Origin: Rhodococcoides fascians NBRC 12155 = LMG 3623
GTDB lineage: Bacteria; Actinomycetota; Actinomycetes; Mycobacteriales; Mycobacteriaceae
Direction: 5' to 3'
DNA: 64,000 bases
NCBI RefSeq assembly: GCF_001894785.1
Contig: NZ_BCWW01000002.1
Span: 186,001 to 250,000, forward strand
The translations under genes were made by a program, and so were the position numbers. The stretch's first letter is position 1; each line of letters starts with the position of its first letter. The notes under the pieces are model-generated. The model was not told the origin of the DNA, did no database searches, and saw nothing but the letters and a program-made list of their open reading frames with translations. Of the stretch, positions 1 to 12,616 are shown one piece after another.

Positions 1-366
1 TTCGGCAATCCGGCGCTGAAACACACCACCCGGCAGGTGGCGATGGACGGATCGCAGAAGCTCGGACCGCGCCTACTCGGAACCGTGCGGGACGCCACAG
101 ACGCCGGTGGTTCGACGGACATGCTCGCCCTTGCCGTCGCAGCCTGGTGCGCCTTCGTTCTCGCCGAGACGGAAGCCGGACGTGCACTAGACGATCCGTT
201 GTCGGCGCAGTTGACCCGGGCCGGGTCGGCGTCGGACCTGCTCGCTGTCGAGTCCATCTTCGGGTCCGATCTCGGGCCCACGTCACCGTTCGGCACGCAG
301 GTCGTTGCGTGGACCGACTTCCTACGGACCAACTCGCTCGGCGAGTGGAAACGAGTACTCGTATGA
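1..366 (+). CDS. Mannitol dehydrogenase-family oxidoreductase (fructuronate/mannonate type), C-terminal fragment
   Basis: Only the last 121 codons lie in the window; the gene enters from the left. The reading frame opens with FGNPALKHTTRQVAMDGSQK, the signature of the C-terminal domain of long-chain mannitol dehydrogenases, whose lysine in the DGSQKL stretch is catalytic in the family. Members reduce fructuronate, tagaturonate or fructose with NAD(P)H in the cytoplasm. The stop overlaps the start of the KDPG aldolase gene (ATGA), so the two are translationally coupled; this favours a D-mannonate oxidoreductase (UxuB-like) role in hexuronate breakdown over mannitol oxidation. Substrate is inferred from the neighbour only. 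Confidence 0.85.
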   Translation, partial: FGNPALKHTTRQVAMDGSQKLGPRLLGTVRDATDAGGSTDMLALAVAAWCAFVLAETEAGRALDDPLSAQLTRAGSASDLLAVESIFGSDLGPTSPFGTQVVAWTDFLRTNSLGEWKRVLV

Positions 367-1022
367 CCTTCGAACCCACTATTTCTGGCGAAAGCCTTAC
401 CGCTCGCGACGTATTGCGCGTGAGCCCGGTGATTCCTGTGGTGGTCATCGATCGGGTCGAGGACGCAGTGCCGCTGGCGCGTGCACTCTATGCGGGCGGT
501 ATCGGCATCATCGAGATGACGTTGCGGTCCGAGGCCGGGCTCGGTGCCATTGCGGCGATCGCTGCGGACGTGCCGGAAGTGGTCATCGGCGCGGGAACGG
601 TGTTGAACCGCGACGATGCCATGAGATCGGTGGATGCCGGCTCTAGGTTCCTGGTCTCACCCGGATCGTCGAAGGGTCTTCTCGACGCGGTACGCACGCT
701 ACCGGTGCCTGCTCTGTCAGGCGTGTCGACTGCGACCGAGGCGATGACCGTTGCCGAGGCCGGATCGACCGAGATGAAGTTCTTCCCGGCCGAGTTCTCG
801 GGTGGCGCAGCGGCACTGGGCGCGCTGGCAGGCCCGTTGCCGCACTTGACGTTCTGCCCCACCGGCGGGATCACTCCGCAGAACGCTGTCGACTACCTGG
901 CATTGCCGAATGTGGTGTGCGTCGGCGGTAGCTGGCTCACGCCGCGCTCACTGGTGCAGGCGGGGGACTGGGCCGCGATAGAGGAACTGGCCCGTTCTGC
1001 GAGTGCGCTCGGCACCGCGTAG
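363..1022 (+). CDS. eda: 2-dehydro-3-deoxy-phosphogluconate (KDPG) aldolase
   Basis: A 219-aa class I aldolase of the KDPG/KHG family, which cleaves KDPG to pyruvate and glyceraldehyde 3-phosphate in the last step of Entner-Doudoroff and hexuronate catabolism. The Schiff-base lysine is visible in EMKFFPAE (K139), and the conserved glutamate in IEMTLR is E51. Length is normal for the family. The ATG at 363 overlaps the stop of the upstream dehydrogenase; a much longer in-frame extension starting at 147 is rejected because it would lie inside that gene. Together the two enzymes cover the reduction and aldol steps of a uronate pathway. Confidence 0.93.
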   Translation: MTFEPTISGESLTARDVLRVSPVIPVVVIDRVEDAVPLARALYAGGIGIIEMTLRSEAGLGAIAAIAADVPEVVIGAGTVLNRDDAMRSVDAGSRFLVSPGSSKGLLDAVRTLPVPALSGVSTATEAMTVAEAGSTEMKFFPAEFSGGAAALGALAGPLPHLTFCPTGGITPQNAVDYLALPNVVCVGGSWLTPRSLVQAGDWAAIEELARSASALGTA

Positions 1023-1048
1023 TTCGGTTCGCGAAGGGTCATTGACGT

Positions 1049-1078
1049 ATTGGTATAACAGTGCTTGTATATCACTGT
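1049..1078. promoter_or_regulatory. Candidate GntR/UxuR-type operator and inverted repeat upstream of the transporter
   Basis: The 12-mer ATTGGTATAACA (1049-1060) resembles half-symmetric boxes bound by FadR/UxuR-type GntR regulators (core TGGTATACCA in enterobacterial UxuR). A second, overlapping dyad pairs ACAGTG (1058-1063) with CACTGT (1073-1078). Both lie between the aldolase stop and the transporter start. The uronate-type enzymes upstream fit such a regulator, but no regulator gene is in view. Confidence 0.35.
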
Positions 1079-1180
1079 GGCGAGCGCCACCAACCCTCCT
1101 CGATGAGGCACAGGTCTCGCGGAGGCCGCGGCGAACTCGCATCATGAACTCATCGATCATCACCAGCAATGGAGCTTCGG

Positions 1181-2578
1181 ATGTCACAGGACACCAACGA
1201 GTCGACGGACGATCGCGGTAACACCGCCGTCCCGACTCGCAGCACTAAAGACCTCACCAAGGCGGCGATGTCCGGTTGGCTGGGTACGGCAATGGAGTTC
1301 ATGGACTTCCAGCTGTATTCGCTCGCCGCCGCGATCGTTTTCAATCGCATCTTCTTCCCCGACGTGAGCCCGGCGATCGGCTTGATCGCGGCCATGGCCA
1401 CTTATGGAGTCGGCTACGTGGCCCGCCTGGTCGGTGCCATCTACTTCGGCCGGATGGGCGATCGGATCGGTCGAAAGAAGGTCCTGTTCATCACCATTGC
1501 GATGATGGGCGCATCCACCACCCTCATCGGCGCACTGCCGACGTACGACGCGATCGGCATCATGGCACCGATCCTGCTCGTTGCCCTCCGCCTGATCCAG
1601 GGATTCGGTGCCGGAGCCGAAATCGCCGGTGCGACGGTCATGTTGGTCGAGTACGCACCGGACAAGCGTCGAGGCCTCATCGCATCGCTGGTCTCTCTGG
1701 GAACCAACTCCGGAACCCTTGCGGCCTCGGCTATCTGGGCCCTGCTGCTCGCTGTCCTGTCCGAGGATCAGTTGCTGAGCTGGGGCTGGCGAGTGCCGTT
1801 CCTCGCGAGCTTCTTCCTGATGATCTTCGCAGTGTGGTTGCGCTCGAACCTGAAGGAAAGCCCGGTCTTCGAGGAGCGTGCCGACGTGGTCGACGGTGTG
1901 GCTCTCTCGCGCGACGAGATCGAGAAGACCGACGAGGACGTGAAGGTCAGCGTTCTCGAGTCCGGTCTCAAGCAGAAGAAGGGGCGCGCGTTCTTCATCG
2001 CGCTGGGTCTGCGGTTCGGTCAGGCGGGCAACTCCGGACTGATTCAGACGTTCCTGGTCGGTTACATCGCGTCGACGCTGCTGATCGATCGTTCCATCGC
2101 CACCAGCGCGATCGTCTACGGCTCGCTCATCGGATTCGCCACCATTCCGCTCATCGGAATCCTGGGCGACAAGTTCGGCCGCCGTCCGATGTACATGGTG
2201 CTCAGCGCCCTCACCATGATTCTGGCGTTCCCGCTGATGCTGATGGTCACCAGCGGCAACACCGTAGCCCTCGTCGTCGCAATGGTTCTTGCTCTGAACC
2301 TCGGTGTGCTGGGCCTGTTCTCGCTCGAAAGCGTGACGATGGCGGAGCTGTTCGGCGCACGTACCCGCTTCACGCAGCTCGCGCTGTCCAAGGAGATCGG
2401 CGGCATCCTCGCCACTGCCATCGGACCGCTGCTCGCGGCCAGTCTCACCGCGTGGACCGGTAGCTGGTGGCCCATCGCGGCAATGCTCGTGATCTACTCC
2501 GCGATCACCCTGGTGTCGGCCTACCTGGCACCGGAAACCAAGGGGCGCGATCTCGTCAGACTGGCCGACGCAGCCTGA
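1181..2578 (+). CDS. MHS-family MFS transporter (metabolite:H+ symporter)
   Basis: An inner-membrane major facilitator of about 465 aa. It has the MHS hallmark N-terminus (GWLGTAMEFMDFQLYS) and the loop-2 signature GRMGDRIGRKKVL; a second copy, GDKFGRRPM, lies after the sixth helix, giving two six-helix halves. MHS members carry organic acids such as shikimate, citrate, ketoglutarate or proline/betaine. I chose the ATG at 1181, not 1169, because GGAG at 1171-1174 gives a good ribosome binding site six bases upstream. Position after uronate enzymes suggests a sugar acid or uronate as substrate; this is inference. Confidence 0.88.
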   Translation: MSQDTNESTDDRGNTAVPTRSTKDLTKAAMSGWLGTAMEFMDFQLYSLAAAIVFNRIFFPDVSPAIGLIAAMATYGVGYVARLVGAIYFGRMGDRIGRKKVLFITIAMMGASTTLIGALPTYDAIGIMAPILLVALRLIQGFGAGAEIAGATVMLVEYAPDKRRGLIASLVSLGTNSGTLAASAIWALLLAVLSEDQLLSWGWRVPFLASFFLMIFAVWLRSNLKESPVFEERADVVDGVALSRDEIEKTDEDVKVSVLESGLKQKKGRAFFIALGLRFGQAGNSGLIQTFLVGYIASTLLIDRSIATSAIVYGSLIGFATIPLIGILGDKFGRRPMYMVLSALTMILAFPLMLMVTSGNTVALVVAMVLALNLGVLGLFSLESVTMAELFGARTRFTQLALSKEIGGILATAIGPLLAASLTAWTGSWWPIAAMLVIYSAITLVSAYLAPETKGRDLVRLADAA

Positions 2579-2585
2579 GATGTCC

Positions 2586-2621
2586 GCAGTGGTGCAGTTG
2601 AGCCCACAGCTGCACCACTGC
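2586..2621. repeat. Intergenic inverted repeat, family A copy 1 (short loop)
   Basis: Perfect 12-bp arms GCAGTGGTGCAG (2586-2597) and CTGCACCACTGC (2610-2621) around a 12-base loop, eight bases after the transporter stop. A transcript would form a strong hairpin, but no T-run follows. The arm core GCAGTGGTGC recurs at 3206 and 12552. Confidence 0.8.
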
Positions 2622-2656
2622 AACACAATTGGACACAAAAAAATCGAACTACCCTA

Positions 2657-2683
2657 TTGGCACTCTCCGGTGGAGAGTGCTAA
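2657..2683. promoter_or_regulatory. CIRCE element (HrcA operator)
   Basis: TTGGCACTC (2657-2665), nine bases, then GAGTGCTAA (2675-2683). This matches the CIRCE consensus TTAGCACTC-N9-GAGTGCTAA with one mismatch in the left arm and exact spacing. CIRCE is bound by the heat-shock repressor HrcA. It lies 70 bases before the small heat-shock gene, so that gene is probably HrcA-controlled. Confidence 0.9.
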
Positions 2684-2753
2684 TTTGGGTTCTGCACAGT
2701 GAAGGGCGGCCCGCCACAGGGGCGGACGCTTCGTCGTACAGGAGGTGGTTGCT

Positions 2754-3194
2754 GTGCTTCGCTTCGATCCGTTCCGTGACCTCGACTCGATTGCTGCCGG
2801 CATGCTCGGCGCGACCAGTGGTTCGGACCGTGCGCCCAGATTCATGCCGATGGATCTGTACAAGCTCGACGACCATTACGTACTCAACGCCGACCTACCC
2901 GGCGTCGATCCCGGCTCCATCGACGTCGACATCGACCGCGGCACCCTCACTCTGACGGCACATCGCACCGCTCCGAGTAGTGATGGTGTGCAGTGGCTTT
3001 CGTCGGAGCGGTTCGCCGGAACGTACCGTCGGCAACTCTCCTTGGGAGACGGCGTCGACGCGGAGAAGATCTCGGCCTCCTACGACAACGGGGTCCTGAC
3101 GGTCACCATCCCGCTGGCGGAGCGGGCGAAGCCGCGCAAGATCGAGATCGCTCACGACAACACGCAGAAGACCATCGAGCCGCAGAAGAGCTGA
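2754..3194 (+). CDS. Hsp20/alpha-crystallin small heat-shock protein
   Basis: A 146-aa cytosolic holdase of the alpha-crystallin family. The N-terminus LRFDPFRDLD and the segment PMDLYKLDDHYVLNADLPG open the crystallin domain, and the closing YDNGVLTVTIPLAE holds the conserved GVL turn. These proteins oligomerise and bind unfolding clients without ATP. GGAGG at 2741-2745 sits eight bases before the GTG at 2754, so that start is preferred over the in-frame GTG at 2745, which overlaps the Shine-Dalgarno. The CIRCE element upstream predicts heat induction through loss of HrcA repression. Confidence 0.93.
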   Translation: MLRFDPFRDLDSIAAGMLGATSGSDRAPRFMPMDLYKLDDHYVLNADLPGVDPGSIDVDIDRGTLTLTAHRTAPSSDGVQWLSSERFAGTYRRQLSLGDGVDAEKISASYDNGVLTVTIPLAERAKPRKIEIAHDNTQKTIEPQKS

Positions 3195-3262: not shown

Positions 3263-3883
3263 TCACACTGCGTTGTGAAATTTGTTCTCGGCGGCCAGCA
3301 TCCCCTCGAACCACCTGTCGAGTGTCTCGTCGTCCACGGCGGCCATCCGGTCGACTTCTCGGGCCAGAGCGTCGACCTGAGCGGCAAACGCTGATCGAGT
3401 GTGCATCGCAATCCATTCTTGAAGTGCCGGTTCGCGTTCGGTGGAGAACCTCATCGCAGTTCGGCACCACGACAAGTACAGAGTCTCGGCGGCGAACATC
3501 GCTACCAGAGCGGCACTTCTACCTTCTCGCTGCGTGAGTCCGAAGGCATAGTCCGACAGCGCCGAGGAACTCGCGATCAACTCTTCGGTATTGCCGTCGA
3601 ACGGAAACTTCTCGCGGAGACCGGCGAAGTACGCTCGCTGTTCTCCGACGAGGTTCGACATCGACATCACATGATCCGACGCGTCGTCCAATGACGTCGA
3701 CTCCGCGACGACCAGCCCCAGAATGCGGACTGCAGTGAGTACGAACGCCTCCTCGATCACCAGGTACCTTCGAAAGTCCTCATCGGAGAGTGATCCGTCC
3801 GTCGATTGCACGATGAACCGAACTTGCTGAGCAGCAGCGAGGTTGGGCTGTTGACGCTCGACGAGTTGCTGCGAGCGGGTCAC
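3263..3883 (-). CDS. TenA-like (thiaminase II fold) protein, likely Cys-less type
   Basis: A 206-aa all-helical protein of the TenA/PQQC superfamily. TenA enzymes hydrolyse thiamin breakdown products such as aminopyrimidines. The helix FRRYLVIEEAFVL corresponds to the TenA segment that normally carries an active-site Asp; here it has EE (44-45). The classical catalytic Cys region reads AMFAAETLYLSW with no Cys at the expected site, as in the TenA_E subclass, which uses Glu. The GTG at 3883 overlaps the stop of the upstream gene (GTGA). It is the last gene of the eight-gene sugar operon, so its substrate may be a pathway intermediate and not thiamin. Function is uncertain. Confidence 0.75.
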   Translation of the reverse strand: MTRSQQLVERQQPNLAAAQQVRFIVQSTDGSLSDEDFRRYLVIEEAFVLTAVRILGLVVAESTSLDDASDHVMSMSNLVGEQRAYFAGLREKFPFDGNTEELIASSSALSDYAFGLTQREGRSAALVAMFAAETLYLSWCRTAMRFSTEREPALQEWIAMHTRSAFAAQVDALAREVDRMAAVDDETLDRWFEGMLAAENKFHNAV

Positions 3884-4632
3884 GCGCCGGCAACCCACGT
3901 GATCAAGCCGTCGAACAGGTCGGTGTAACCGGGCCATAGTTCGCAGAACTCGGGCGGGGCCCAGTGCGGCGAGCAATCGGAGGTGAAGACCGCGGATCGG
4001 CCCGAGCCGTATTCGCCGACCGCGACGAGCGGATCTCCATTGATGGTGGCGGGCACGGCAGCGCCCTCCTTCGGTACCACTCGGTTGTAACCGAGCAAGG
4101 CGGGCCACTGTGTTCCGCTGGCACCCAGTGCGGCGTGCGTGCTGTCGACGACATCGGGAACCATTCCGCCGGGAGCCTCGACTCGGTCGTCTTCGGCCAG
4201 CAGTGTCACCGGCAATACGTCGGCGAGCACAGTCTGCCGATACGCGGCGCGCGCTTGGAAACCGGAGAACGACAGGTACCCGCCGATCATGATCAGTCCT
4301 CCTCCGCTGCTCACCCACTCACGCAGTGCGGCAAGCCTGTCGTCGCCGGCCTGGAAGCGGTCGAACACGTTGGGCGCGAGCTGAATCGAATTGGCTCCGA
4401 TATCCGACAGCACGATTACGTCGAACTCGGACAGGGCCTCGGCCGTGCCGGGGAATTGTGTGGGAACGAGGTGCGCGGGCATGTGAACCACTTCGTGCCC
4501 GCGCGAGGTGAGTGCGTCACGCAGGGGTCCGACCCCTTCGACGTAGGAATGGACGGTGAATTCGTCGACGCCTTTGACGTGGGTGGACGAGGTCATCCAG
4601 CTTTCGCCGGCGATCAGAACTTTCTTACCCAT
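3880..4632 (-). CDS. GATase1-like protein (PF07090/DUF1355 family)
   Basis: A 250-aa cytosolic protein of the putative glutamine amidotransferase-like family formerly DUF1355. The start (GKKVLIAGESWMTSSTHVKG) and the middle segment VLSDIGANS are typical, and GGGLIMIGGYLSFSG matches the class-I amidotransferase-like fold. I see no nucleophilic Cys in the usual elbow position (GGYLSF), so amidotransferase activity is doubtful. It is between the phosphotriesterase-like and TenA-like genes and overlaps the latter by four bases, so it should be made in step with them. No reaction is known to me for this family. Confidence 0.8.
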   Translation of the reverse strand: MGKKVLIAGESWMTSSTHVKGVDEFTVHSYVEGVGPLRDALTSRGHEVVHMPAHLVPTQFPGTAEALSEFDVIVLSDIGANSIQLAPNVFDRFQAGDDRLAALREWVSSGGGLIMIGGYLSFSGFQARAAYRQTVLADVLPVTLLAEDDRVEAPGGMVPDVVDSTHAALGASGTQWPALLGYNRVVPKEGAAVPATINGDPLVAVGEYGSGRSAVFTSDCSPHWAPPEFCELWPGYTDLFDGLITWVAGA

Positions 4633-4641
4633 GGTGGTTCT

Positions 4642-5667
4642 CTATCCTTTTCCGGCGCTCTCGAAGAGCGACCTGGGGTTGTCCTGCATGAGCGAGGAGA
4701 CGTGGTGTGCGTCCATTCCGCTGCGGACCAGCCGCGCTGCGAAAGAGACTGGAACGTAGGCCAATCCGTTGCCACCGAACTTGCGGAGCATCGACTTGAG
4801 AAAGAGATCGTGACTGAGCAGCAACTGGGATCGATAGCCGCCACCGACGAGGCCGCAGATCGCGAACGCCGTATCGGCGGGCGACGGCGACTGGCCCTCG
4901 CCTGCGAACTCGAAGGGCATGCCGATCATGTCGAACTCGAGGAAGACTCCGCGATCGGCGAGGGCGCACTGATAGTCGGGGTCGTCGCCCGAGGGGTCCA
5001 TGTGGCAGAGCACCACAGCTGCCGGGTCGACACCCATCTCGTCCACGACGATGTCGAGGACTTGATGCCCTCTGCGTTGCCAGCCCGGGAGATGGACGAA
5101 CAAGGGTACGTAGGTTTCTCTTTGGGCGATGCAGGCGGCTCTCAGCGCTTTGGCCTCGGCGTCGGTGAACGACGGCGAAACGCCGATCTCACCGATCACC
5201 CCCGGCCGCGGCCCGTCGCCGGTGAATTCGGCGATGAGCCGGGCCGCGAGGTTGTCGATACCGAGCGCGGTGACCTCGGGCGGGTGCGTGGGTTCGAGAT
5301 ACCAGCCCGAACCCATGACGACGCGTACTCCGGTCTCGCGTGAGTAGTGCTCGAGGATCTCGGGTCGCCGCCCGATGCCCGGCGGCGTGAGGTCGACGAC
5401 CGTGGTACCGCCGTTGTCCGCGAACACTTTCAGGTCGTCGAGTACGGCCGCCGCGTCGTCCACTCGGCAGTTGTCTGCGCTGTGGTACGGGTTGTCGTGC
5501 AGCAGCCAGGCGCGGTCCGCCGATACCGGACCGGACAGCAACTGCGCCAGAGCCGGGTCGGCAGCTTCGGAATACGCGGTCGAGGCGTCGTTGTGCAGAT
5601 GCTCGTGCGGTAGCACCAGTCCCAGTTCGCTGGAGTCGATCGGCCCGGTGACGGTCTGGACGATCAT
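4642..5667 (-). CDS. Phosphotriesterase-related protein (PTE/PHP family hydrolase or lactonase)
   Basis: A 341-aa TIM-barrel amidohydrolase. The metal-binding HxH is in LPHEHLHND near the N-terminus; later metal or shell residues are visible in VIGEIGVSP, FVHLPG, LCHMDPSGDD and LLLSHDLFLKS. Most bacterial PHP homologues are not phosphotriesterases: some characterised members hydrolyse phosphorylated sugar lactones. In an operon with a PfkB kinase and a sugar importer, a sugar-phosphate lactonase is the most economical guess. The start overlaps the permease stop (ATGA). Product class is firm; the substrate is inference. Confidence 0.85.
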   Translation of the reverse strand: MIVQTVTGPIDSSELGLVLPHEHLHNDASTAYSEAADPALAQLLSGPVSADRAWLLHDNPYHSADNCRVDDAAAVLDDLKVFADNGGTTVVDLTPPGIGRRPEILEHYSRETGVRVVMGSGWYLEPTHPPEVTALGIDNLAARLIAEFTGDGPRPGVIGEIGVSPSFTDAEAKALRAACIAQRETYVPLFVHLPGWQRRGHQVLDIVVDEMGVDPAAVVLCHMDPSGDDPDYQCALADRGVFLEFDMIGMPFEFAGEGQSPSPADTAFAICGLVGGGYRSQLLLSHDLFLKSMLRKFGGNGLAYVPVSFAARLVRSGMDAHHVSSLMQDNPRSLFESAGKG

Positions 5668-6698
5668 TGCTTACCCGGTGCGCTCTGCAGGTGCTTGAAC
5701 AGCGAAGCCAGAGAGTGCCCGCGCATGTTGATCCAGATGGCAACGAGCAGAACGACACCGGTGATGATCGGTGTCAGGAACGGGCTCACACCGAGTAGCG
5801 TCAGACCGTTGGCGATGATGCCGGTCAACACTGCACCGATGACGGTGCCGATGACCGTTCCCCGGCCGCCGAACAGGTTGGTGCCTCCCAACACCACTGC
5901 GGTGATGACGGTGAGCTCGAAACCATTGGCGGAGTTGGCCGATCCCGAACCGAGTCGTGCAGCGATCAATAGGCCCGCGATGCCCGCGGCGAGCCCGGTG
6001 AAGACCAGGGTCATCATCAGCACGCGACGGGTGTTGACGCCGGAGCGTCGGACGGATTCGACGTTCGAGCCGATTCCGGTGACGTAGCGGCCGAATCGTG
6101 TGCGATTGAGCGCAACAGCGCCGACGATCACGACGGCCAGAGCGATCCAAGCGCTTGCCGAAAAGCCCAGCCACGACGCCGTACCCAGTTTCGCGAAGGC
6201 GGTACCGGGAGTGATCGGCACCGAGAAGCCCTCGGTCCTGTACAACGCGATGCCGCGGATGATGGACAGGGTTGCCAGGGTGACGATGAACGGCGGAATG
6301 CCCTGATACGCGGCGAGCCAGCCGTTGACCAGGCCCCATGCTGCGCCCATCAGTGGTGCCGCGACGAACACCACCGAGGAGTCGACGCCGGCTTGGATGA
6401 GTTCGGCACTCATCGCGGCGACGAAGGCAACGGTCGCTCCGACCGACAGATCGATCTGACCGGTGGTGATCACGAACGTCATGGCAACGGCGATGATGAG
6501 CACCGGAGCAATCTGCGTCGCGAGATTCGAGATGTTGGTGAAGGTCAAGAACGAGGACGTCGTCACCGAGAACACCAGGGCCACTGCGACGGTGACCGCC
6601 AGCATGGCCAGGGTGGGTTTGTTGGTCTGCTGCCACAGAGTCGGGCGAGCCGCGAGTTTCTCCACGGTCGGCTGGGCTTTCTTGTCCACGGTGATCAT
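5664..6698 (-). CDS. Ribose/xylose-type sugar ABC transporter permease
   Basis: A 344-aa membrane protein of the RbsC/XylH class (BPD_transp_2). The signatures TGQIDLSVGATVAFVAAMSA, GIPPFIVTLATLSIIRG and VVLGGTNLFGGRGTVIGT are all present, with about ten hydrophobic segments. It forms the membrane channel for the adjacent ATPase and lipoprotein. The ATG at 6698 overlaps the ATPase stop. A much longer in-frame extension to 7190 runs through the ATPase gene and is not credible. Confidence 0.92.
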   Translation of the reverse strand: MITVDKKAQPTVEKLAARPTLWQQTNKPTLAMLAVTVAVALVFSVTTSSFLTFTNISNLATQIAPVLIIAVAMTFVITTGQIDLSVGATVAFVAAMSAELIQAGVDSSVVFVAAPLMGAAWGLVNGWLAAYQGIPPFIVTLATLSIIRGIALYRTEGFSVPITPGTAFAKLGTASWLGFSASAWIALAVVIVGAVALNRTRFGRYVTGIGSNVESVRRSGVNTRRVLMMTLVFTGLAAGIAGLLIAARLGSGSANSANGFELTVITAVVLGGTNLFGGRGTVIGTVIGAVLTGIIANGLTLLGVSPFLTPIITGVVLLVAIWINMRGHSLASLFKHLQSAPGKQ

Positions 6699-7480
6699 GG
6701 GCGGCCTTCCGGCGAGGAGGGTGAACGCTGGGGAACCGGCGTGCGCGTGATCAATCCGACGAGCGACTCGATGTTCAGATCGCCGATCGGAACATCGTCG
6801 ACGCTCTGCCCCTCGTACATGACGGTGATGCGGTCGCAGACCCGGAACAGGTCCTGTAGGCGGTGCGTCACCAGGATGACTCCGACGCCTTGGGCTGCGA
6901 CGTCGGTGATGAGCTTCAGAACCGATTCCACCTCTGCCACAGCAAGAGCGGCGGTGGGTTCGTCCAGAATCAACACGTCCGGTCGAAACGAGACCGCGCG
7001 TGCGATGGCTACCGTCTGGCGTTGCCCACCGGAGAGTTGCCCGATCTCCTGGTAGGTCGACTTCACCTTCACGTGCAGGTCCGCCAGAATCTTGGCGGAA
7101 CGTTCGTGCATCCCGTGGCGATCGAGGAACGGCCCCTTGCGTGGCTCGCGGCCGAGGAACAGATTGCTTGCGACGTCCAGGGTGTCGCACAGGGCGAGGT
7201 CTTGGTAGACGATGCCGATTTTCTTCTGTTGTGCGTCCAGCGGTGTCGAGAAGCGCACGGGTTCTCCGTTGACGCGCATCTCGCCACCGTCGTGTTGGAC
7301 GGCACCGGCAAGGATTTTCATGAGCGTCGACTTGCCGGCGCCGTTGTCTCCGACGACGCCGAGTACTTCGCCGCGGGCGAGTCGAAGGTCGACTCCGCGA
7401 AGCGATTTCACCGGGCCGTACGATTTGGTGATTCCCGAGAGTTCGATCAGTGGCGCGACCGTCAGGTCTTGTTGTGCCAT
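6695..7480 (-). CDS. Sugar ABC transporter ATP-binding protein (single-domain)
   Basis: A 261-aa ATPase with Walker A GDNGAGKST, signature LSGGQRQ, Walker B VLILDEPTA and switch His in VTHRL. Ribose-type importers often use a fused double ATPase of about 500 aa; this is the single-domain form, as in fructose FrcA-like systems, and would work as a homodimer. The chosen start at 7480 (AQQDLTVAPLIELSG) lies four bases from the upstream lipoprotein stop; extension to 7597 would enter that gene. It energises import by the 5664-6698 permease. Confidence 0.92.
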   Translation of the reverse strand: MAQQDLTVAPLIELSGITKSYGPVKSLRGVDLRLARGEVLGVVGDNGAGKSTLMKILAGAVQHDGGEMRVNGEPVRFSTPLDAQQKKIGIVYQDLALCDTLDVASNLFLGREPRKGPFLDRHGMHERSAKILADLHVKVKSTYQEIGQLSGGQRQTVAIARAVSFRPDVLILDEPTAALAVAEVESVLKLITDVAAQGVGVILVTHRLQDLFRVCDRITVMYEGQSVDDVPIGDLNIESLVGLITRTPVPQRSPSSPEGRP

Positions 7481-7484
7481 AGGG

Positions 7485-8498
7485 CTACTTCTCCAGGTAG
7501 TACATGTAGTCGCCGACGTTCTCCGGAGTGACGATCTGGGTCGGTACCGGGATGTCAGCGAGTGCGGTCCGTCCGCAGCCGAGGTCGATGGCGGCATTCA
7601 TGGCCTCGTAGCCGAACTCGAAGGTGTTCTGCTGCACGACGCCTTTCAGCCACCCTGCGTTGAGAGCGGAGACGGCCTGATCGGACAGATCCCAGCCGAC
7701 GGCCTGAATTCGGTCCTGCGCGTTCTGACTGTTCACGGCGGCGACCAACCCGATCAGAGCAGGCTCCCCGGTGGCGTACACGTACTGCATGTCCGGGTTG
7801 CCGGTGAGCAGGTTCTCGGCTGCGGTCTGCGCGTTCTCCTGGATGTTGCGGCCGTCGACCACGGTGCCGACGGTCATCCCGGCCGCCGAGACGGTATCGG
7901 TGAAGCCCTTCTGACGTTCGAGCTGGATGGTGCTGTTGAGTGCGCCGACGATTCCTACGGTGCCGGTGTTGTTCGCCAACGCAGTGAGGGTGTCGCCGAT
8001 CTGAACGCCGCCTTCGGCGTTGGCGGTGCCGACCTGCGTGTCCACGGCAGGATCGTCGACGGTCGCGTCGACTGCGACGACCGGAATGCCCGCAGCATCG
8101 GCCTTGACGATCGAGGGCTTGATGCCGTCCGTGTCGATGGCATCGACGATGATCGCGTCGACGCCCGAGGCGATGAGATTGTCGAAAGCGTTGGCCTGGC
8201 TGACCGAGTCGTCGTTACCGCTGATGATCTGCAGCTCTACGCCGGTCTGGTCCGCGATCTTCTGGGCAGCATTGTTGATCTGATTGAAGAACAGCGCCTG
8301 GAGGTTGATGGTGACGAGGCCGACCTTGAGGGCACCGTTCTTACCGTCGCACGAATCGGCGACGCGGCTCGGATCCGGGATGCTCGACGCGGCTGCGTCG
8401 GTTCCGCCCGCGGTGTCGCTGCTGGATGCGGAGTCGCACGAGGTGAGGGTGAGCGCGAGTGCGGCACCGAGAACGAGGGGGAGTGCGCGTTTGATCAT
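7485..8498 (-). CDS. Periplasmic-type sugar-binding lipoprotein (RbsB-like)
   Basis: A 337-aa type I periplasmic-binding protein. The signal peptide MIKRALPLVLGAALALTLTS ends at a lipobox Cys (C21), so it is a membrane-anchored receptor outside the cell. LKVGLVTINLQALFFNQI and LIASGVDAIIVDAIDTDG are standard RbsB-fold strands. An AGGAG motif precedes the ATG at 8498, which overlaps the stop of the PfkB gene. It captures the operon's substrate; the sequence alone does not say which sugar or nucleoside. Confidence 0.92.
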   Translation of the reverse strand: MIKRALPLVLGAALALTLTSCDSASSSDTAGGTDAAASSIPDPSRVADSCDGKNGALKVGLVTINLQALFFNQINNAAQKIADQTGVELQIISGNDDSVSQANAFDNLIASGVDAIIVDAIDTDGIKPSIVKADAAGIPVVAVDATVDDPAVDTQVGTANAEGGVQIGDTLTALANNTGTVGIVGALNSTIQLERQKGFTDTVSAAGMTVGTVVDGRNIQENAQTAAENLLTGNPDMQYVYATGEPALIGLVAAVNSQNAQDRIQAVGWDLSDQAVSALNAGWLKGVVQQNTFEFGYEAMNAAIDLGCGRTALADIPVPTQIVTPENVGDYMYYLEK

Positions 8499-9391
8499 CG
8501 GGTCTCCTGAAGGTCGACAGTGGCGAGCGTGGTCGTGAAGTCGGTGAGTTCGGTCGGCGTGGGGCATCCGCGTGGTCCGGCTGTGGCGCAGGCGAGTGCT
8601 GCCGAGATTCCCGCCATTCGGGCTGCGTGGATCGGGGGTTCGCCCGCGTCGATGAAGGCGATGTAGGTGCCGCAGAAGCAGTCTCCGGCTCCGACGGCAT
8701 CTATGACGTCGACCGGTACTGCCGGTTCGGTGATGGTCTCACCCGAGGGTGTGACCAGGGTCCACCCGCGTTCGCCGTCGGTGACGACGAGGTGGGTGTC
8801 GTGCTCGGCGGTCAGTATCGGCCACCGTTCGGCTGGGATGCCGAAGCTGTTCTGCCACAGACTGCGTCCGACGATGACGTGGTCGGCAAGGGCGAATGCG
8901 TGCAGTGCGGCGTCGAGGTCGTCACAGCCGTCGAGGTCGATGGCGAGGCCTACGTTGTCGGGGAGTGTGGGTGGGAGCATCGATGCGCGGTAGCCGTCGA
9001 GGAACACGCGTCCGCCGTCGACAGAGAGCTTGTCGAGGACCGTGCGTAGTCTGCCTGCGTCGTTGGCGTCGTCTTGGCTGATGATCGATCGGTCCCCGCC
9101 GTCGGCGATGAGAACCACTGCGGTGGAGAGGAATGCGTCGCGCGGTGCCCAGCTGGTGTCGACTCCGTCGCGTTCGAGGGCCGCGAGGAATTCGGAGGAT
9201 CGGATGTCCGGGCCCACCGCGCCGGCGAACGCGACGCGGGCTCCCATGCGGGCTGCCGACACTGCGGCGTTGGCATTCATGCCGCCGTCGATCGACTCGA
9301 TCGTCGTGGCCTGCACCCTCTCTCCGAGGGTCGGAACATGCGGAACATGAACCGTCACATCGTTGTTGGCGTAGCCGAAAAATACGATCAT
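8495..9391 (-). CDS. PfkB-family carbohydrate kinase
   Basis: A 298-aa ribokinase-like kinase. It has the early glycine-rich sugar-binding segment ESIDGGMNANAAVSAARMG and the C-terminal anion-hole motif DAVGAGD (231-237), whose last Asp (D237) is the catalytic base. It transfers phosphate from ATP to a sugar or nucleoside hydroxyl in the cytoplasm. It sits three bases after the BtpA-like gene and overlaps the lipoprotein gene, so kinase and importer are co-made; it presumably phosphorylates the imported substrate. Confidence 0.9.
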   Translation of the reverse strand: MIVFFGYANNDVTVHVPHVPTLGERVQATTIESIDGGMNANAAVSAARMGARVAFAGAVGPDIRSSEFLAALERDGVDTSWAPRDAFLSTAVVLIADGGDRSIISQDDANDAGRLRTVLDKLSVDGGRVFLDGYRASMLPPTLPDNVGLAIDLDGCDDLDAALHAFALADHVIVGRSLWQNSFGIPAERWPILTAEHDTHLVVTDGERGWTLVTPSGETITEPAVPVDVIDAVGAGDCFCGTYIAFIDAGEPPIHAARMAGISAALACATAGPRGCPTPTELTDFTTTLATVDLQETR

Positions 9392-9394
9392 CGT

Positions 9395-10261
9395 CTACTT
9401 CCCGGCTGCGCGGGACACGTCGCGAACCTTCTCGCCGGAGACCCGGCCCCACCAGCGTGCGTTCTCCTTCACCGAAGAAGCGATGATGGCACCGTCGCAT
9501 TCGTTCATCAGGTCGGCGACGTTGGCCGCCGTGATTCCCGATCCGATGATGACGGGGAGGACCGTGTTGTTCTTGATGACCGACACCTCGTCGACCGAGG
9601 CGGCGTCACCGGTTCTCGAGCCGGTTGCGATGAGCACGTCTGCGTCGAAGAATTCTGCGTCCTCGGTCTGTTCGGCGATGGTGCGATCGGCAACGATGGC
9701 GTGGGCACCGTGCTTGACGTGCACGTCGGCGAAGATCTTGACCGGGTCGGCACCGATGCGATGGCGAAAGCGGGTGGTCTTGGCTGCCTGGCCTTCGATG
9801 AATCCCTCGTTGGCGATGTAGGCGTTTGCCCACTGGTTGACCCGCACGAAGCTCGCTCCGGCGGCCCACGCTGCGGCCACGCCGCATTCGCCCGCGTTGG
9901 ACAGGATTGATACTCCGACTCTGCTGCCGAACTCACCGACGACGGAGGCGGTGACGACGCCCATGCTGGCCGCTGTTTCGTATCCGTGCTCTCCGGGCTT
10001 GAGGAAGGGTATGTCCCAATGATTTTCGACGATGACGCCATCGAATCCGTTGTCGATGTACGCGTGCGCCTCCTCCACGGCGAAGCCTGCGATCTCGGAG
10101 ACGGGCTGGCCCTTGTAGTGCGGGCTGCCCGGCAGTGCGGGTAGGTGGATCGCGCCGATGAGTGCGGGTGCGGAGGTGAACATCTCGGCCAGCGCCGACG
10201 GCTTTGTCGGAAATACCCCCAGCGAAGCTGAGGGGTTCGGATCCGACGGGGACGTACTCAC
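9395..10261 (-). CDS. BtpA/SgcQ-family protein
   Basis: A 288-aa predicted TIM-barrel protein of the BtpA family (PF03437). Typical segments are ALIGAIHLPALPGSP, NGFDGVIVENHWDIPF, VRVNQWANA, KIFADVHVKH and VIIGSGITAANVADL. The founding BtpA affects photosystem I stability, while SgcQ lies in an E. coli sugar operon; no reaction is established to my knowledge. The GTG at 10261 follows AGGAG at suitable spacing; an in-frame start at 10327 would place the N-terminus across the LacI operator and promoter and is rejected. It is the first gene of the operon, so it probably acts on the substrate or its phosphate. Confidence 0.85.
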   Translation of the reverse strand: MSTSPSDPNPSASLGVFPTKPSALAEMFTSAPALIGAIHLPALPGSPHYKGQPVSEIAGFAVEEAHAYIDNGFDGVIVENHWDIPFLKPGEHGYETAASMGVVTASVVGEFGSRVGVSILSNAGECGVAAAWAAGASFVRVNQWANAYIANEGFIEGQAAKTTRFRHRIGADPVKIFADVHVKHGAHAIVADRTIAEQTEDAEFFDADVLIATGSRTGDAASVDEVSVIKNNTVLPVIIGSGITAANVADLMNECDGAIIASSVKENARWWGRVSGEKVRDVSRAAGK

Positions 10262-10299
10262 GTAAGGAGCTCCTCTGGTGTGGGCGTCGACCAAGGCGA

Positions 10300-10313
10300 T
10301 GTAATCGATTGCC
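10300..10313. promoter_or_regulatory. LacI-type operator O1, downstream of the operon promoter
   Basis: TGTAATCGATTGCC, with symmetric core AATCGATT, matches the second site at 10376 at 12 of 14 positions in the same orientation. It lies just past the expected transcription start of the minus-strand operon, a position suited to repression. Confidence 0.7.
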
Positions 10314-10325
10314 TCGTATGTATGC

Positions 10326-10356
10326 ACCGTAGGCGATCGGCACCGGGTCGTGTCAA
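10326..10356 (-). promoter_or_regulatory. Promoter of the BtpA-PfkB-ABC operon
   Basis: On the minus strand TTGACA (10356-10351) is a perfect -35 box, followed after 19 bases by TACGGT (10331-10326), which fits the actinobacterial TANNNT -10 pattern. It lies between the two LacI-type operators. Confidence 0.5.
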
Positions 10357-10375
10357 GGAATTCTTGAGTCGTTTA

Positions 10376-10389
10376 TGTAAACGATTACC
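10376..10389. promoter_or_regulatory. LacI-type operator O2, upstream, near lacI-type gene promoter
   Basis: TGTAAACGATTACC, an imperfect palindrome with GTAA/TTAC ends, centred 76 bases from the first site. LacI-family operators commonly have a central CG and this length. A pair on both sides of the promoter would allow looping and autoregulation. Confidence 0.65.
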
Positions 10390-10463: not shown

Positions 10464-11489
10464 ATGCGCAAAGCAACCATTCGTGACGTCGCGGAGCGCG
10501 CGGGCGTCTCGACAGCCACGGTGTCTCGGGCGCTCTCGGGGTCACGTCCGGTGTCGGACGACGTTGCCGCGAGTATTCGGCAGGCGGCGGCCGATCTCGG
10601 CTATTCGGGCAACATCATCGCCAGTTCGCTGCGCCGCAACCGCACGGACACGGTTGGGATGGTGGTGCCCAGTATTGCCAACCCGTTCTTCACCTCGCTC
10701 GTCGTCAACGTCGAACATGTTCTCTCGCAGCGTGGACTGCAGTTGTTCCTGTGCGATTCGCGATCGGATCCGGAAGTCGAGGCGCAACGGCTGCGTAGTC
10801 TGGTCTCGCGTCAGGTCGACGGCATCATCATCAGCCCGTGCCATGGAGAACGTTCTGCCGAGGCGGTTCGTGCGTCGGCCCGTGCGATCCCCGTGGTCCA
10901 GCTCGACCGCTTCGCTCTCGATACTCATACCGATTGGGTCGGCGTCGATGATGATGCCGCTCAGGGCCTGATCATGGATCACCTTGCTGCACAGGGTGTT
11001 CGGAGTGCCGCGTTCATCAGTTCCGAGCTGACCAATTCGTCGACGGAGTTGCGGCGGGCCGGCTTCTTCCGCCATGCCGAGCGCGTGGGGATTCGGACGC
11101 GGGACGAGTGGACGTTGTTGGGTGATTATTCGATCGACTGGGGGCGTGAGTCGTCGCGCTCGATCCTCGCTTCTCCCACGCGGCCCGATGCGGTGGTGGG
11201 TGCGGACGACCTGATCGCCCTCGGGGTGCTGCAGAGCTGCCAGGCTCTGGGATTGTCGGTCCCGGGCGATGTGATGGTCACCGGGTTCGACGACATTCCG
11301 TTCTCTGCATTGAGCAATCCGCCGCTGACCACCATCCGGCAACCGCAGGAACGAATCGCTGAAGAGGCCACTCGCCTACTGGATCAGGCCATGAACAGCG
11401 ATCACACCGGCACTGCGCACATCGCGTTGCAGCCGGAGTTGGTGGTCCGTCAGTCGACGGTCGGCCACGCACGCGTCGCCGCGGTGTAG
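10464..11489 (+). CDS. LacI-family transcriptional regulator
   Basis: A 341-aa repressor with the LacI N-terminal HTH (IRDVAERAGVSTATVSRALSG), the hinge helix region NIIASSLRRNRTDTVG, and a ribose-binding-like sensor domain (VVPSIANPFFTSLV ... VTGFDDIPFSALSNPPLTTI). The ATG follows AGGAG. It is transcribed away from the eight-gene sugar operon and lies next to two near-identical operators, so it is the likely local repressor, released by the imported sugar or its phosphate. Its 3' end overlaps the convergent M20 peptidase gene by 40 bases. Confidence 0.93.
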   Translation: MRKATIRDVAERAGVSTATVSRALSGSRPVSDDVAASIRQAAADLGYSGNIIASSLRRNRTDTVGMVVPSIANPFFTSLVVNVEHVLSQRGLQLFLCDSRSDPEVEAQRLRSLVSRQVDGIIISPCHGERSAEAVRASARAIPVVQLDRFALDTHTDWVGVDDDAAQGLIMDHLAAQGVRSAAFISSELTNSSTELRRAGFFRHAERVGIRTRDEWTLLGDYSIDWGRESSRSILASPTRPDAVVGADDLIALGVLQSCQALGLSVPGDVMVTGFDDIPFSALSNPPLTTIRQPQERIAEEATRLLDQAMNSDHTGTAHIALQPELVVRQSTVGHARVAAV

Positions 11490-12532
11490 GCCACGATCGC
11501 CGCATCGAGTTCGTCGAGCGTGACGGTTTCGTCGGCGGCGTGCATCAGTGCCGGCGTCCCCGGCCCCCACACGACAATAGGGGCACCGGGGGCAGCGGAT
11601 CCGATGATGGACGCGTCGGTGAAGTACGTGACCGGTTCTGTAGCAACGGTATGCGGAAGGCCATCCACCCATCGGTCGCCTTGGGGTGTGCGAACTCCGG
11701 GCAGATCGATGCGAGCGTCGGCGTGATCGACCTCGGGTTGATCGCGCCACCAGGACAGCAGTGCCGAACCGTCCCCGACGGTGCGATGGTCGACGACGAC
11801 GTGTGCGGTGTCAGGAACGATGTTGGGTGCCGAGCCGCCGTCGATCAATCCCACGTTGAACGTTTCGGCGCCCAGGAACTGATCCGTAGACAGCGGGAGC
11901 TCGGTGCGGGCTCGTGCCAACACGTCGACCAGTTTCATGATTGCACTCTCACCCCGATGCGGAGTACTTCCATGTGCTGCAATGCCTTTGGTGGTCACAT
12001 CGACCCACAACGCACCTCGATGCCCCAGATGGACGCGATTTCCCGTTGCCTCGGGAACCACGACCGCTCCTACGGCGCACTCGGCGACGGCGTGGCGAGC
12101 GGCACGCGCACCGAGTGACCCGATCTCTTCGTCGCTGGTGAGCAACAGGGCGGCAGGAACCCCGTTGTCGAAGGCGTCCATCACCGCAGCGGTGGCGGCA
12201 ACAAGCCCGGCCTTCATGTCCGAGGTGCCGCGGCCACGGAGAACACCGTGTTCGATATCTGCAGCGAAGGGATCGAACTGCCAATTCGACAGATCACCCG
12301 CCGGCACGGTGTCCACGTGGCACGCGAACATCAACCGCGTCGACGTCGGCGGGGAGGGATTGGTGATCAACAGCCATGGGTGGGGACCATCCGGATCGCC
12401 GTCGATGGCAAGGTCACCGACGCGGGCCCTGAGCACGGACACGATTTCGTCCATCGACGAGCGCTGGGGGCGGGGATCACCCGACACAGTGGGCTGGGTG
12501 ACCAGTTCGGTGAGAAGTCCGACGGAATCCAT
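11450..12532 (-). CDS. M20-family metallopeptidase/deacylase (ArgE/DapE-like)
   Basis: A 360-aa di-zinc hydrolase. Metal ligands can be read in FACHVDTVP (His), GTSDMKAG (Asp), TSDEEIGS (the Glu pair: base and ligand), VVPEATG (Glu) and the C-terminal LMHAADE (His). A lid domain (GIAAHGSTPHRGESAI) separates the halves. Family members remove N-acyl or succinyl groups from amino acids or cleave dipeptides in the cytoplasm; 360 aa fits DapE or ArgE. A dapE role cannot be decided without context, as no lysine-pathway gene is near. The start at 12532 precedes the family A repeat. Confidence 0.87.
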   Translation of the reverse strand: MDSVGLLTELVTQPTVSGDPRPQRSSMDEIVSVLRARVGDLAIDGDPDGPHPWLLITNPSPPTSTRLMFACHVDTVPAGDLSNWQFDPFAADIEHGVLRGRGTSDMKAGLVAATAAVMDAFDNGVPAALLLTSDEEIGSLGARAARHAVAECAVGAVVVPEATGNRVHLGHRGALWVDVTTKGIAAHGSTPHRGESAIMKLVDVLARARTELPLSTDQFLGAETFNVGLIDGGSAPNIVPDTAHVVVDHRTVGDGSALLSWWRDQPEVDHADARIDLPGVRTPQGDRWVDGLPHTVATEPVTYFTDASIIGSAAPGAPIVVWGPGTPALMHAADETVTLDELDAAIVAYTAATRAWPTVD

Positions 12533-12551
12533 GACTCCAGTATGCCCGTGG

Positions 12552-12615
12552 TGCCTGCGGCAGTGGTGCGGCAGAGCGCCGCAGAGGGCACATAACCGCA
12601 CCACTGCCGCAGGCA
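12552..12615. repeat. Intergenic inverted repeat, family A copy 3 (longest arms)
   Basis: Perfect 20-bp arms: TGCCTGCGGCAGTGGTGCGG at 12552-12571 pairs with its reverse complement at 12596-12615. The 24-base loop ends GGGCACATAA and is 20/24 identical to the loop at 3206. It lies between two minus-strand genes. Conservation of both arms and loop is more than a terminator needs. Confidence 0.88.
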
Positions 12616-12616
12616 T

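Follow-up and report, generated by a model that had tools for sequence, protein, structure and literature searches.

This analysis concerns an eight-gene operon on the minus strand of a 64,000-nucleotide stretch of the Rhodococcoides fascians NBRC 12155 = LMG 3623 genome (5.77 Mb; contig NZ_BCWW01000002.1, positions 186001-250000), hereafter called the window. With a probability of roughly one half, it is under LacI control and serves to break down a ribose-containing compound, by a route in which a PfkB-family kinase and a BtpA/SgcQ-family protein would do the work of a nucleoside hydrolase and a ribokinase. The substrate is most likely an N-riboside whose aglycone has amide- or ester-like bonds. 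The genes, found by open reading frame (ORF) calls at window positions 3263-10261, are listed below from the first to the last.

9395..10261, minus strand: BtpA/SgcQ-family protein, operon gene 1, 288 amino acids (PF03437, TIGR00259)
8495..9391, minus strand: PfkB-family kinase, ribokinase-like, 298 amino acids (PF00294)
7485..8498, minus strand: substrate-binding protein (SBP) of a sugar ABC importer, similar to RbsB but with a changed pocket (PF13407, Peripla_BP_4)
6695..7480, minus strand: ATPase of the ABC importer, single domain (PF00005, ABC_tran)
5664..6698, minus strand: permease of the ABC importer (PF02653, BPD_transp_2)
4642..5667, minus strand: phosphotriesterase (PTE)-family metal hydrolase, 3K2G group, bridging residue Glu (PF02126)
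3880..4632, minus strand: GATase1_like (glutamine amidotransferase-like) protein without a conserved Cys (PF07090, 303 bits)
3263..3883, minus strand: TenA-like protein without the catalytic Cys (PF03070, TENA_THI-4, 33.5 bits)

All eight proteins pass the Pfam gathering scores. A first-pass annotation, made from the letters of this DNA alone, had described a tightly coupled eight-gene operon at this place, and the description stands: neighbouring genes overlap by 4 bases at four of the seven junctions (PfkB/SBP, ATPase/permease, permease/PTE and GATase/TenA), and the remaining three are gaps of 3, 4 and 9 bases. Among the matches listed, the closest named relatives of the GATase-like protein are from Rhodococcus (83-85% identity).

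Sister loci, numbered with the prefix L, were collected by a profile scan of genome contigs with an alignment of the GATase-like protein, which confirmed at least 571 relatives. Among the best 80 of these, BtpA is present in 21 clusters, all of them with PfkB and PTE, 20 with TenA and none with a nucleoside hydrolase; the hydrolase is present in 13 clusters, none of which has BtpA. The addition of plasmid records and further genomes to these 80 brought the set to 128 distinct GATase loci (identical GATase DNA counted once, the window itself uncounted, and L001-L033, L133-L136, L145-L157 and L170-L199 omitted as short). Their neighbouring genes were tabulated by tblastn, which superseded an ORF-calling table that was poor in GC-rich DNA. 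BtpA alone occurs at 35 of these loci, the hydrolase alone at 33, both at two (L036 and L216) and neither at 58.

A core of SBP, permease, PTE and GATase is found at 53 of the 128 loci, 33 of which also have TenA; the last three genes of the operon are thus conserved with the transporter, a point for which the first-pass annotation had proposed a gene-neighbourhood search. BtpA without the hydrolase occurs at 32 core loci (PfkB at 32/32, TenA at 28/32) and the hydrolase without BtpA at 14 (PfkB at 13/14, TenA at 0/14), while one has both and six have neither, of which L047-L049 end at contig ends. The kinase of one of the 32 BtpA-type loci, Klebsiella L122, is split by IS1; in this record of Klebsiella pneumoniae strain 176, which is 5.37 Mb long and labelled as a plasmid, the GATase frame is also broken and the remaining operon genes keep open frames. 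The hydrolase-type order in Coriobacteriia is M20, LacI, SBP, ATPase, permease, PTE, GATase, hydrolase and PfkB, with the first of these set apart from the rest, and hydrolase-type operons in the window's own gene order exist as well (L210, and L143 without PfkB). In sister operons, the pair of a nucleoside hydrolase and a ribokinase-like kinase occupies the place of BtpA and PfkB, together with TenA where present.

The exchanged hydrolases are likely, not certainly, of pyrimidine type, judging from the two that were scored with NCBIfam models, one of them from a core locus. The core-locus hydrolase (L096) scores highest with UriH (364 bits, cut-off 450) and next with RihA (350 bits, cut-off 433), and that of a Clostridia-type cluster (L088) matches ribosylpyrimidine nucleosidase first (426.5 bits, cut-off 459). 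In Clostridia, the GATase also accompanies nucleoside hydrolases together with importers of BMP type. The operon is widespread: actinobacteria, rhizobia (with an operon on pRL9 of Rhizobium johnstonii 3841), Paracoccus and Klebsiella have homologous gene sets, and Pantoea shows neighbouring matches.

The importer shared by both operon types resembles ribose transporters. The SBP matches the structure 5HSG (E 4.3e-67), the ATPase aligns to the first half of the YtfR and RbsA models, and the permease is AraH/RbsC-like, below the cut-offs of both models (NCBIfam). This RbsB/RbsC/RbsA-like importer and the ribokinase-like PfkB are what an ordinary ribose uptake operon would hold, a reading that is nevertheless improbable. 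Out of the twelve positions that we take to be the ribose contacts of RbsB (S9, N13, F15, F16, D89, R90, R141, F164, N190, F214, D215 and Q235), the window SBP retains six of the E. coli residues (F15, F16, D89, R141, D215 and Q235) and departs at S9, N13, R90, F164, N190 and F214, which is not the D-ribose pocket of RbsB. Ribose uptake would, moreover, leave the BtpA, PTE, GATase-like, TenA-like and M20 proteins without evident use. The kinase itself belongs to the PfkB family by PF00294 (111.4 bits, Pfam), and its best NCBIfam model, ribokinase TIGR02152, scores 103.7 bits, under the cut-off of 299.65. On the side of ribose uptake, RikA, the kinase of a related Salmonella gene set, is a ribokinase (PMC13432705).

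The pocket is the same on both sides of the exchange. Over 462 pairs of BtpA-type and hydrolase-type SBPs, agreement is 98.7% at the 12 pocket positions and 46.9% overall, a figure that shows agreement in aligned residues and not an identical ligand, functional cores being conserved anyway; none of 20000 random 12-column sets was as conserved. The fingerprint IAFFDARNGDWQ is found in 46 of 53 SBP sequences (the window counted, and L208 left out of the pocket analyses for its weak importer match). It discriminates, because in a control the 16 SBPs from other GATase operons bear other fingerprints, and those of L069 and L140 have exactly the RbsB one. By these alignments, the importer is of ribose type, with a distinct and conserved predicted pocket. 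With the hydrolase replacing BtpA in 14 of 53 core operons and the pocket residues unchanged, the first-pass guess of an N-glycoside or modified nucleoside as substrate gains support.

Two side observations concern other pockets. At L069 and L140, GATase and PfkB genes adjoin the importer with the RbsB fingerprint, and PF07090 therefore also accompanies apparent plain ribose uptake. Three Clostridioides difficile loci (L076, L077 and L082) have the order LacI, PfkB, SBP, ATPase, permease, M20 and GATase, with a third pocket type, IHFFDARDADFQ; an AbgB-like M20 gene lies downstream in L076, as named by eye.

The BtpA protein belongs clearly to the BtpA/SgcQ family (PF03437 at 202.6 bits against a cut-off of 30; TIGR00259 at 181 against 153.4), and the model for photosystem I biogenesis BtpA, NF045918, gives 154.3 bits against a cut-off of 400. 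A sequence comparison with the PDB yielded weak matches only (best E 0.023). The predicted structure of its 288 residues (pLDDT 79, pTM 0.83) is a phosphate-binding-type TIM barrel, whose nearest folds are MJ1099 (Z 20.1), followed by ThiE, hexulose-6-phosphate synthase, HisF, KDPGal aldolase and PriA, many of them tied; such likeness between a predicted model and known folds is no proof of function.

The same fold neighbours, with hexulose-6-phosphate synthase and KDPGal aldolase among them, would suit a possible, clearly less probable alternative within riboside catabolism. BtpA would then act after cleavage, as an isomerase, epimerase or aldolase of the freed pentose phosphate, and opening the aglycone bond would fall to the PTE, GATase-like or TenA-like protein or to an unlinked nucleosidase. 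Gene neighbourhoods point the same way. In L237-L240, a gene of PF01008 (IF-2B family) immediately precedes BtpA (L263 and L264 are longer stretches of two of these); PF01008 is a family that we take to include aldose-1-phosphate isomerases, and this is a hint at pentose-phosphate chemistry for BtpA. A ribulose-phosphate 3-epimerase-like gene also stands beside BtpA in E. coli sgc and in L220, and the genome does contain an unlinked nucleoside hydrolase. What BtpA action after cleavage leaves unexplained is the rarity of BtpA and the hydrolase together (one of the 47 core loci with either), and how the hydrolase operons do without BtpA.

Other BtpA neighbourhoods are more diffuse. Homologues near AAA_5, lysine-decarboxylase-like and MDMPI genes gave no functional lead. 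In Sagittula (L125, 7933-9004) and Acidisoma (L132, 9855-10870), two hypothetical genes of about 240 and 105 amino acids, without a Pfam match, follow BtpA, and the Sagittula pair adjoins ureide genes (RidA, AllE and an allantoate-amidohydrolase-like gene). A study of haloarchaeal pentose bisphosphate metabolism does not mention BtpA in the text searched (PMC9700705).

Several findings weigh against assigning riboside cleavage to PfkB and BtpA. At other actinobacterial BtpA loci above the Pfam cut-off, PfkB lies within 1.5 kb in only 5 of 23, four of them weak (43-47 bits); these are 23 of 25 above-cut-off matches, the window's own and one without a locus being left out. A general coupling of BtpA and PfkB across the family was accordingly dropped, and the coupling is valid for this branch. 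The exchange with the hydrolase takes two changes on a tree of PTE and GATase, where the starred branches force one, and independent exchange events are therefore few (65 rows, of which 32 have BtpA, counting the window, 15 have the hydrolase, 17 neither and 1 both; L038, L089 and L122 omitted for stops or short pieces). As loci were collected by GATase similarity and the best-scoring kept, constancy of the GATase is built in and actinobacteria are over-represented. Palleronia L036 has BtpA with a hydrolase in an adjoining operon, and L216 has both. In Frigoribacterium L061 and L066, the core and TenA are present and neither BtpA nor PfkB was found, and Microbacterium L050, L053 and L067 have just LacI, M20, PTE, GATase and TenA among the gene types sought. 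No nucleoside hydrolase was found among the ten window proteins scanned with Pfam, and the genome's single IU_nuc_hydro match, on another contig (C4), could supply the cleavage. Finally, the Salmonella rikA set as described (PMC13432705) lacks both BtpA and a hydrolase, which also favours BtpA acting after cleavage.

TenA accompanies BtpA operons and never the hydrolase-type core ones. It is more than a mere BtpA partner, because it persists at L050, L053, L061, L066 and L067, where neither BtpA nor PfkB was found.

The regulation of the operon can be read from the spacer upstream of BtpA, which separates it from a divergent regulator gene.

10300..10313, no strand assigned: LacI operator-like site 1, TGTAATCGATTGCC (motif search, genome and orthologous loci)
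10376..10389, no strand assigned: LacI operator-like site 2, TGTAAACGATTACC (motif search, genome and orthologous loci)
10464..11489, plus strand: divergent LacI-family regulator, which adjoins the operon in sister loci too (PF00356, PF13377)

The two sites match the pattern KGYAAWCGWTTRCM, which never occurs in 100 shuffled versions of the window and, at zero mismatch, has no other match in the whole genome; a whole-genome search for further LacI targets, again without mismatch, accordingly gave no additional genes. Sites of this type recur at orthologous loci. Among loci with a LacI gene, at least one operator word lies near that gene at 25 of 30 of the BtpA type, 11 of 14 of the hydrolase type and 4 of 61 others, counts that are descriptive, as the pattern was derived from the BtpA-type and some other of these loci. 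The uniqueness of the two sites in the genome is the stronger point. LacI control, as proposed in the first pass, is thus supported, with the two sites as predicted operators. The start of BtpA is most likely the GTG at 10261 rather than 10327, because site 1 would fall within the longer frame and the aligned L041 frame starts at the same place (its start picked by script). A promoter and terminator scan gave no promoter-like and one terminator-like site, below the shuffle means of 1.0 and 4.1.

The PTE-like enzyme may act on the aglycone. Its residues H21, H23, E160, H192, H222 and D287, invariant across four orthologues, are presumably the binuclear metal ligands (HxH, bridging residue, two His and Asp), with Glu rather than Lys as the bridge; the site is complete in the sequence and consistent with H26, H28 and E169 of PTER. 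The best profile matches are 3K2G (551 bits), 3RHG (432.8 bits; 3RHG/4QSF is Pmi1525) and 9EFA (280.3 bits). Mouse PTER, whose own nearest structure is 3K2G, hydrolyses N-acetyltaurine (PMC11374699), and this activity appears to make hydrolysis of an amide or ester more likely than that of a lactone. The family does include phospho-furanose lactonases, and the protein matches their model NF045706 (E 1.5e-8), from which one could derive a route where an oxidised phosphosugar lactone is opened by this enzyme. Such a route is hardly probable: the match is worth 34.1 bits against a cut-off of 630, the nearest solved structures are 3K2G, 3RHG/4QSF and 9EFA, named 'phosphotriesterase-related protein', the PTER activity speaks against it, and a dehydrogenase is absent from the ten window proteins scanned with Pfam. 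The phosphosugar lactonase of the first-pass annotation was therefore rejected as the main reading, on the NF045706 score and the nearest structures, and the sequence of steps given there (import, PfkB, BtpA, lactonase, then TenA/GATase) is hypothetical.

The GATase-like protein has relatives with structures (2GK3 and 3SOZ, the latter STM1381). The nucleophile of class I glutamine amidotransferases is a Cys, and in an alignment of 11 GATase-like sequences no Cys stands in an invariant or nearly invariant column. Other GATase clusters, on Rhodococcus and Arthrobacter plasmids, in Pseudonocardia and in an order-mate (L035, L037, L101, L102, L111 and L201), combine in various mixes nicotinate phosphoribosyltransferase, phosphoribosyl pyrophosphate synthase, a ribokinase-like kinase and a HAD phosphatase with aldehyde dehydrogenases, an LLM flavin enzyme and, in some cases, PTE. 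Such sets resemble a route in which a ring compound is first ribosylated and then degraded, with recycling of the ribose.

The TenA-like protein was first described as lacking Cys. This holds at the catalytic position, which aligns to Ala132 (against 2RD3 and 3IBX), and fails elsewhere, as Cys140, conserved in most orthologues, is present off that position. E44, E133, H161, E199 and H203 are invariant. The predicted model (pLDDT 96) has the TenA fold, with Arabidopsis AT3G16990 among its matches, and the diiron heme-oxygenase-like oxidases CADD and UndA rank beneath the TenA structures. Given this fold, one could propose thiamin-pyrimidine salvage, with the protein as an aminopyrimidine aminohydrolase. 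This is very unlikely: TIGR04306 (thiaminase II) scores 20.8 bits against 130, which together with Ala132 sets the protein apart from TenA_C, no other thiamin gene is among the ten window proteins scanned with Pfam, and the linked importer is ribose-type. The proposal was rejected on the replacement of the catalytic Cys. The fold is compatible with TenA_E, a Cys-less TenA that uses N-formyl-aminopyrimidine. In Sagittula stellata E-37, a BtpA-linked TenA lies at L125:9891-10544. A published study lists a TenA_E (A3K4E0) for this strain, which nevertheless did not grow on the formyl-aminopyrimidine (PMC10470507); if A3K4E0 is the BtpA-linked TenA, its real role may be in the BtpA operon.

Beyond the LacI gene lies a further candidate.

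11450..12616, minus strand: M20 ArgE/DapE-like hydrolase (PF01546/PF07687)

A hydrolase of M20 or M20-carbamoylase type is linked to 24 of 32 BtpA-type and 12 of 14 hydrolase-type loci, and the window's M20 hydrolase is likely a ninth member of the pathway. To the left of the operon (window 363-3194), KDPG-aldolase-like, MFS-transporter-like and small heat-shock-like genes, named by eye, have no evidence linking them to it.

In the favoured route, the ABC importer would take up the ribose-containing compound and PfkB would phosphorylate its ribose part. BtpA, as a phosphate-binding-type barrel, would then cleave or rearrange the phosphorylated riboside to give ribose-5-phosphate, and the PTE-family, M20, GATase-like and TenA-like proteins may dismantle the aglycone. 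We know of no reaction for BtpA/SgcQ or PF07090, a literature search listed no paper that treats either as an enzyme, and riboside cleavage by BtpA, if true, would be the first for its family to our knowledge. The exchange of BtpA and hydrolase with the same importer pocket makes an assayable hypothesis, kinase and BtpA on ribosides, and the binding protein offers a direct route to finding the substrate. The nutrient may be common, because the gene sets occur in actinobacteria, rhizobia and the other groups named above.

The components are known families, and the assembled route, a presumed variant of riboside-catabolic operons, was not found described. No description of this gene set was found in the open-licence PMC literature, where only a partial Salmonella set appears; the first-pass statement that it knew of no described pathway with this set thus holds for the whole operon and needs amending for a four-gene relative in print by June 2026 (PMC13432705). 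This set, rikA-STM3548-STM3549-STM3550, shares with the window a PfkB kinase, a GATase1_like protein, a PTE-family enzyme and a transporter, but has a DMT (drug/metabolite transporter) protein instead of an ABC importer and, as described, no BtpA or TenA. Activity was shown for the kinase alone: it phosphorylates ribose both in vitro and in vivo, and cells can grow on ribose with its support. The authors consider that this activity may be off-target, and they came across no functional studies of the other three genes (PMC13432705).

In E. coli sgc, a BtpA-family protein, SgcQ (24% identical), likewise occurs together with sugar transport and a gene of M42 peptidase type, but the transport is by a phosphotransferase system rather than ABC, and an epimerase-like gene is linked. 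In the profile search, 9EFA, which we equate with PTER because of its name, comes third among solved relatives of the PTE-like protein; PTER has similar HxH and Glu metal ligands, and differs in being mammalian, with a substrate that is unrelated as far as known (PMC11374699). Actinobacterial 2'-O-methylnucleoside clusters, in which a nucleoside hydrolase stands with ribokinase and aldolase genes, share with the window a ribokinase-type gene in a riboside cluster, whereas the window has BtpA and no linked hydrolase (PMC6278475).

The precedent for a kinase followed by cleavage is PsuK/PsuG pseudouridine catabolism, where the intact riboside is phosphorylated and a second enzyme releases ribose-5-phosphate, as proposed here for PfkB and BtpA (PMC9247573). 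PsuG is not BtpA, and the kinase-first order is one that we infer for the window. Tentatively, and at less than even odds, BtpA may represent another type of enzyme that works with a kinase to cleave a riboside or open its ring, on a route that parallels PsuK/PsuG and would be exchangeable for a hydrolase and a ribokinase.

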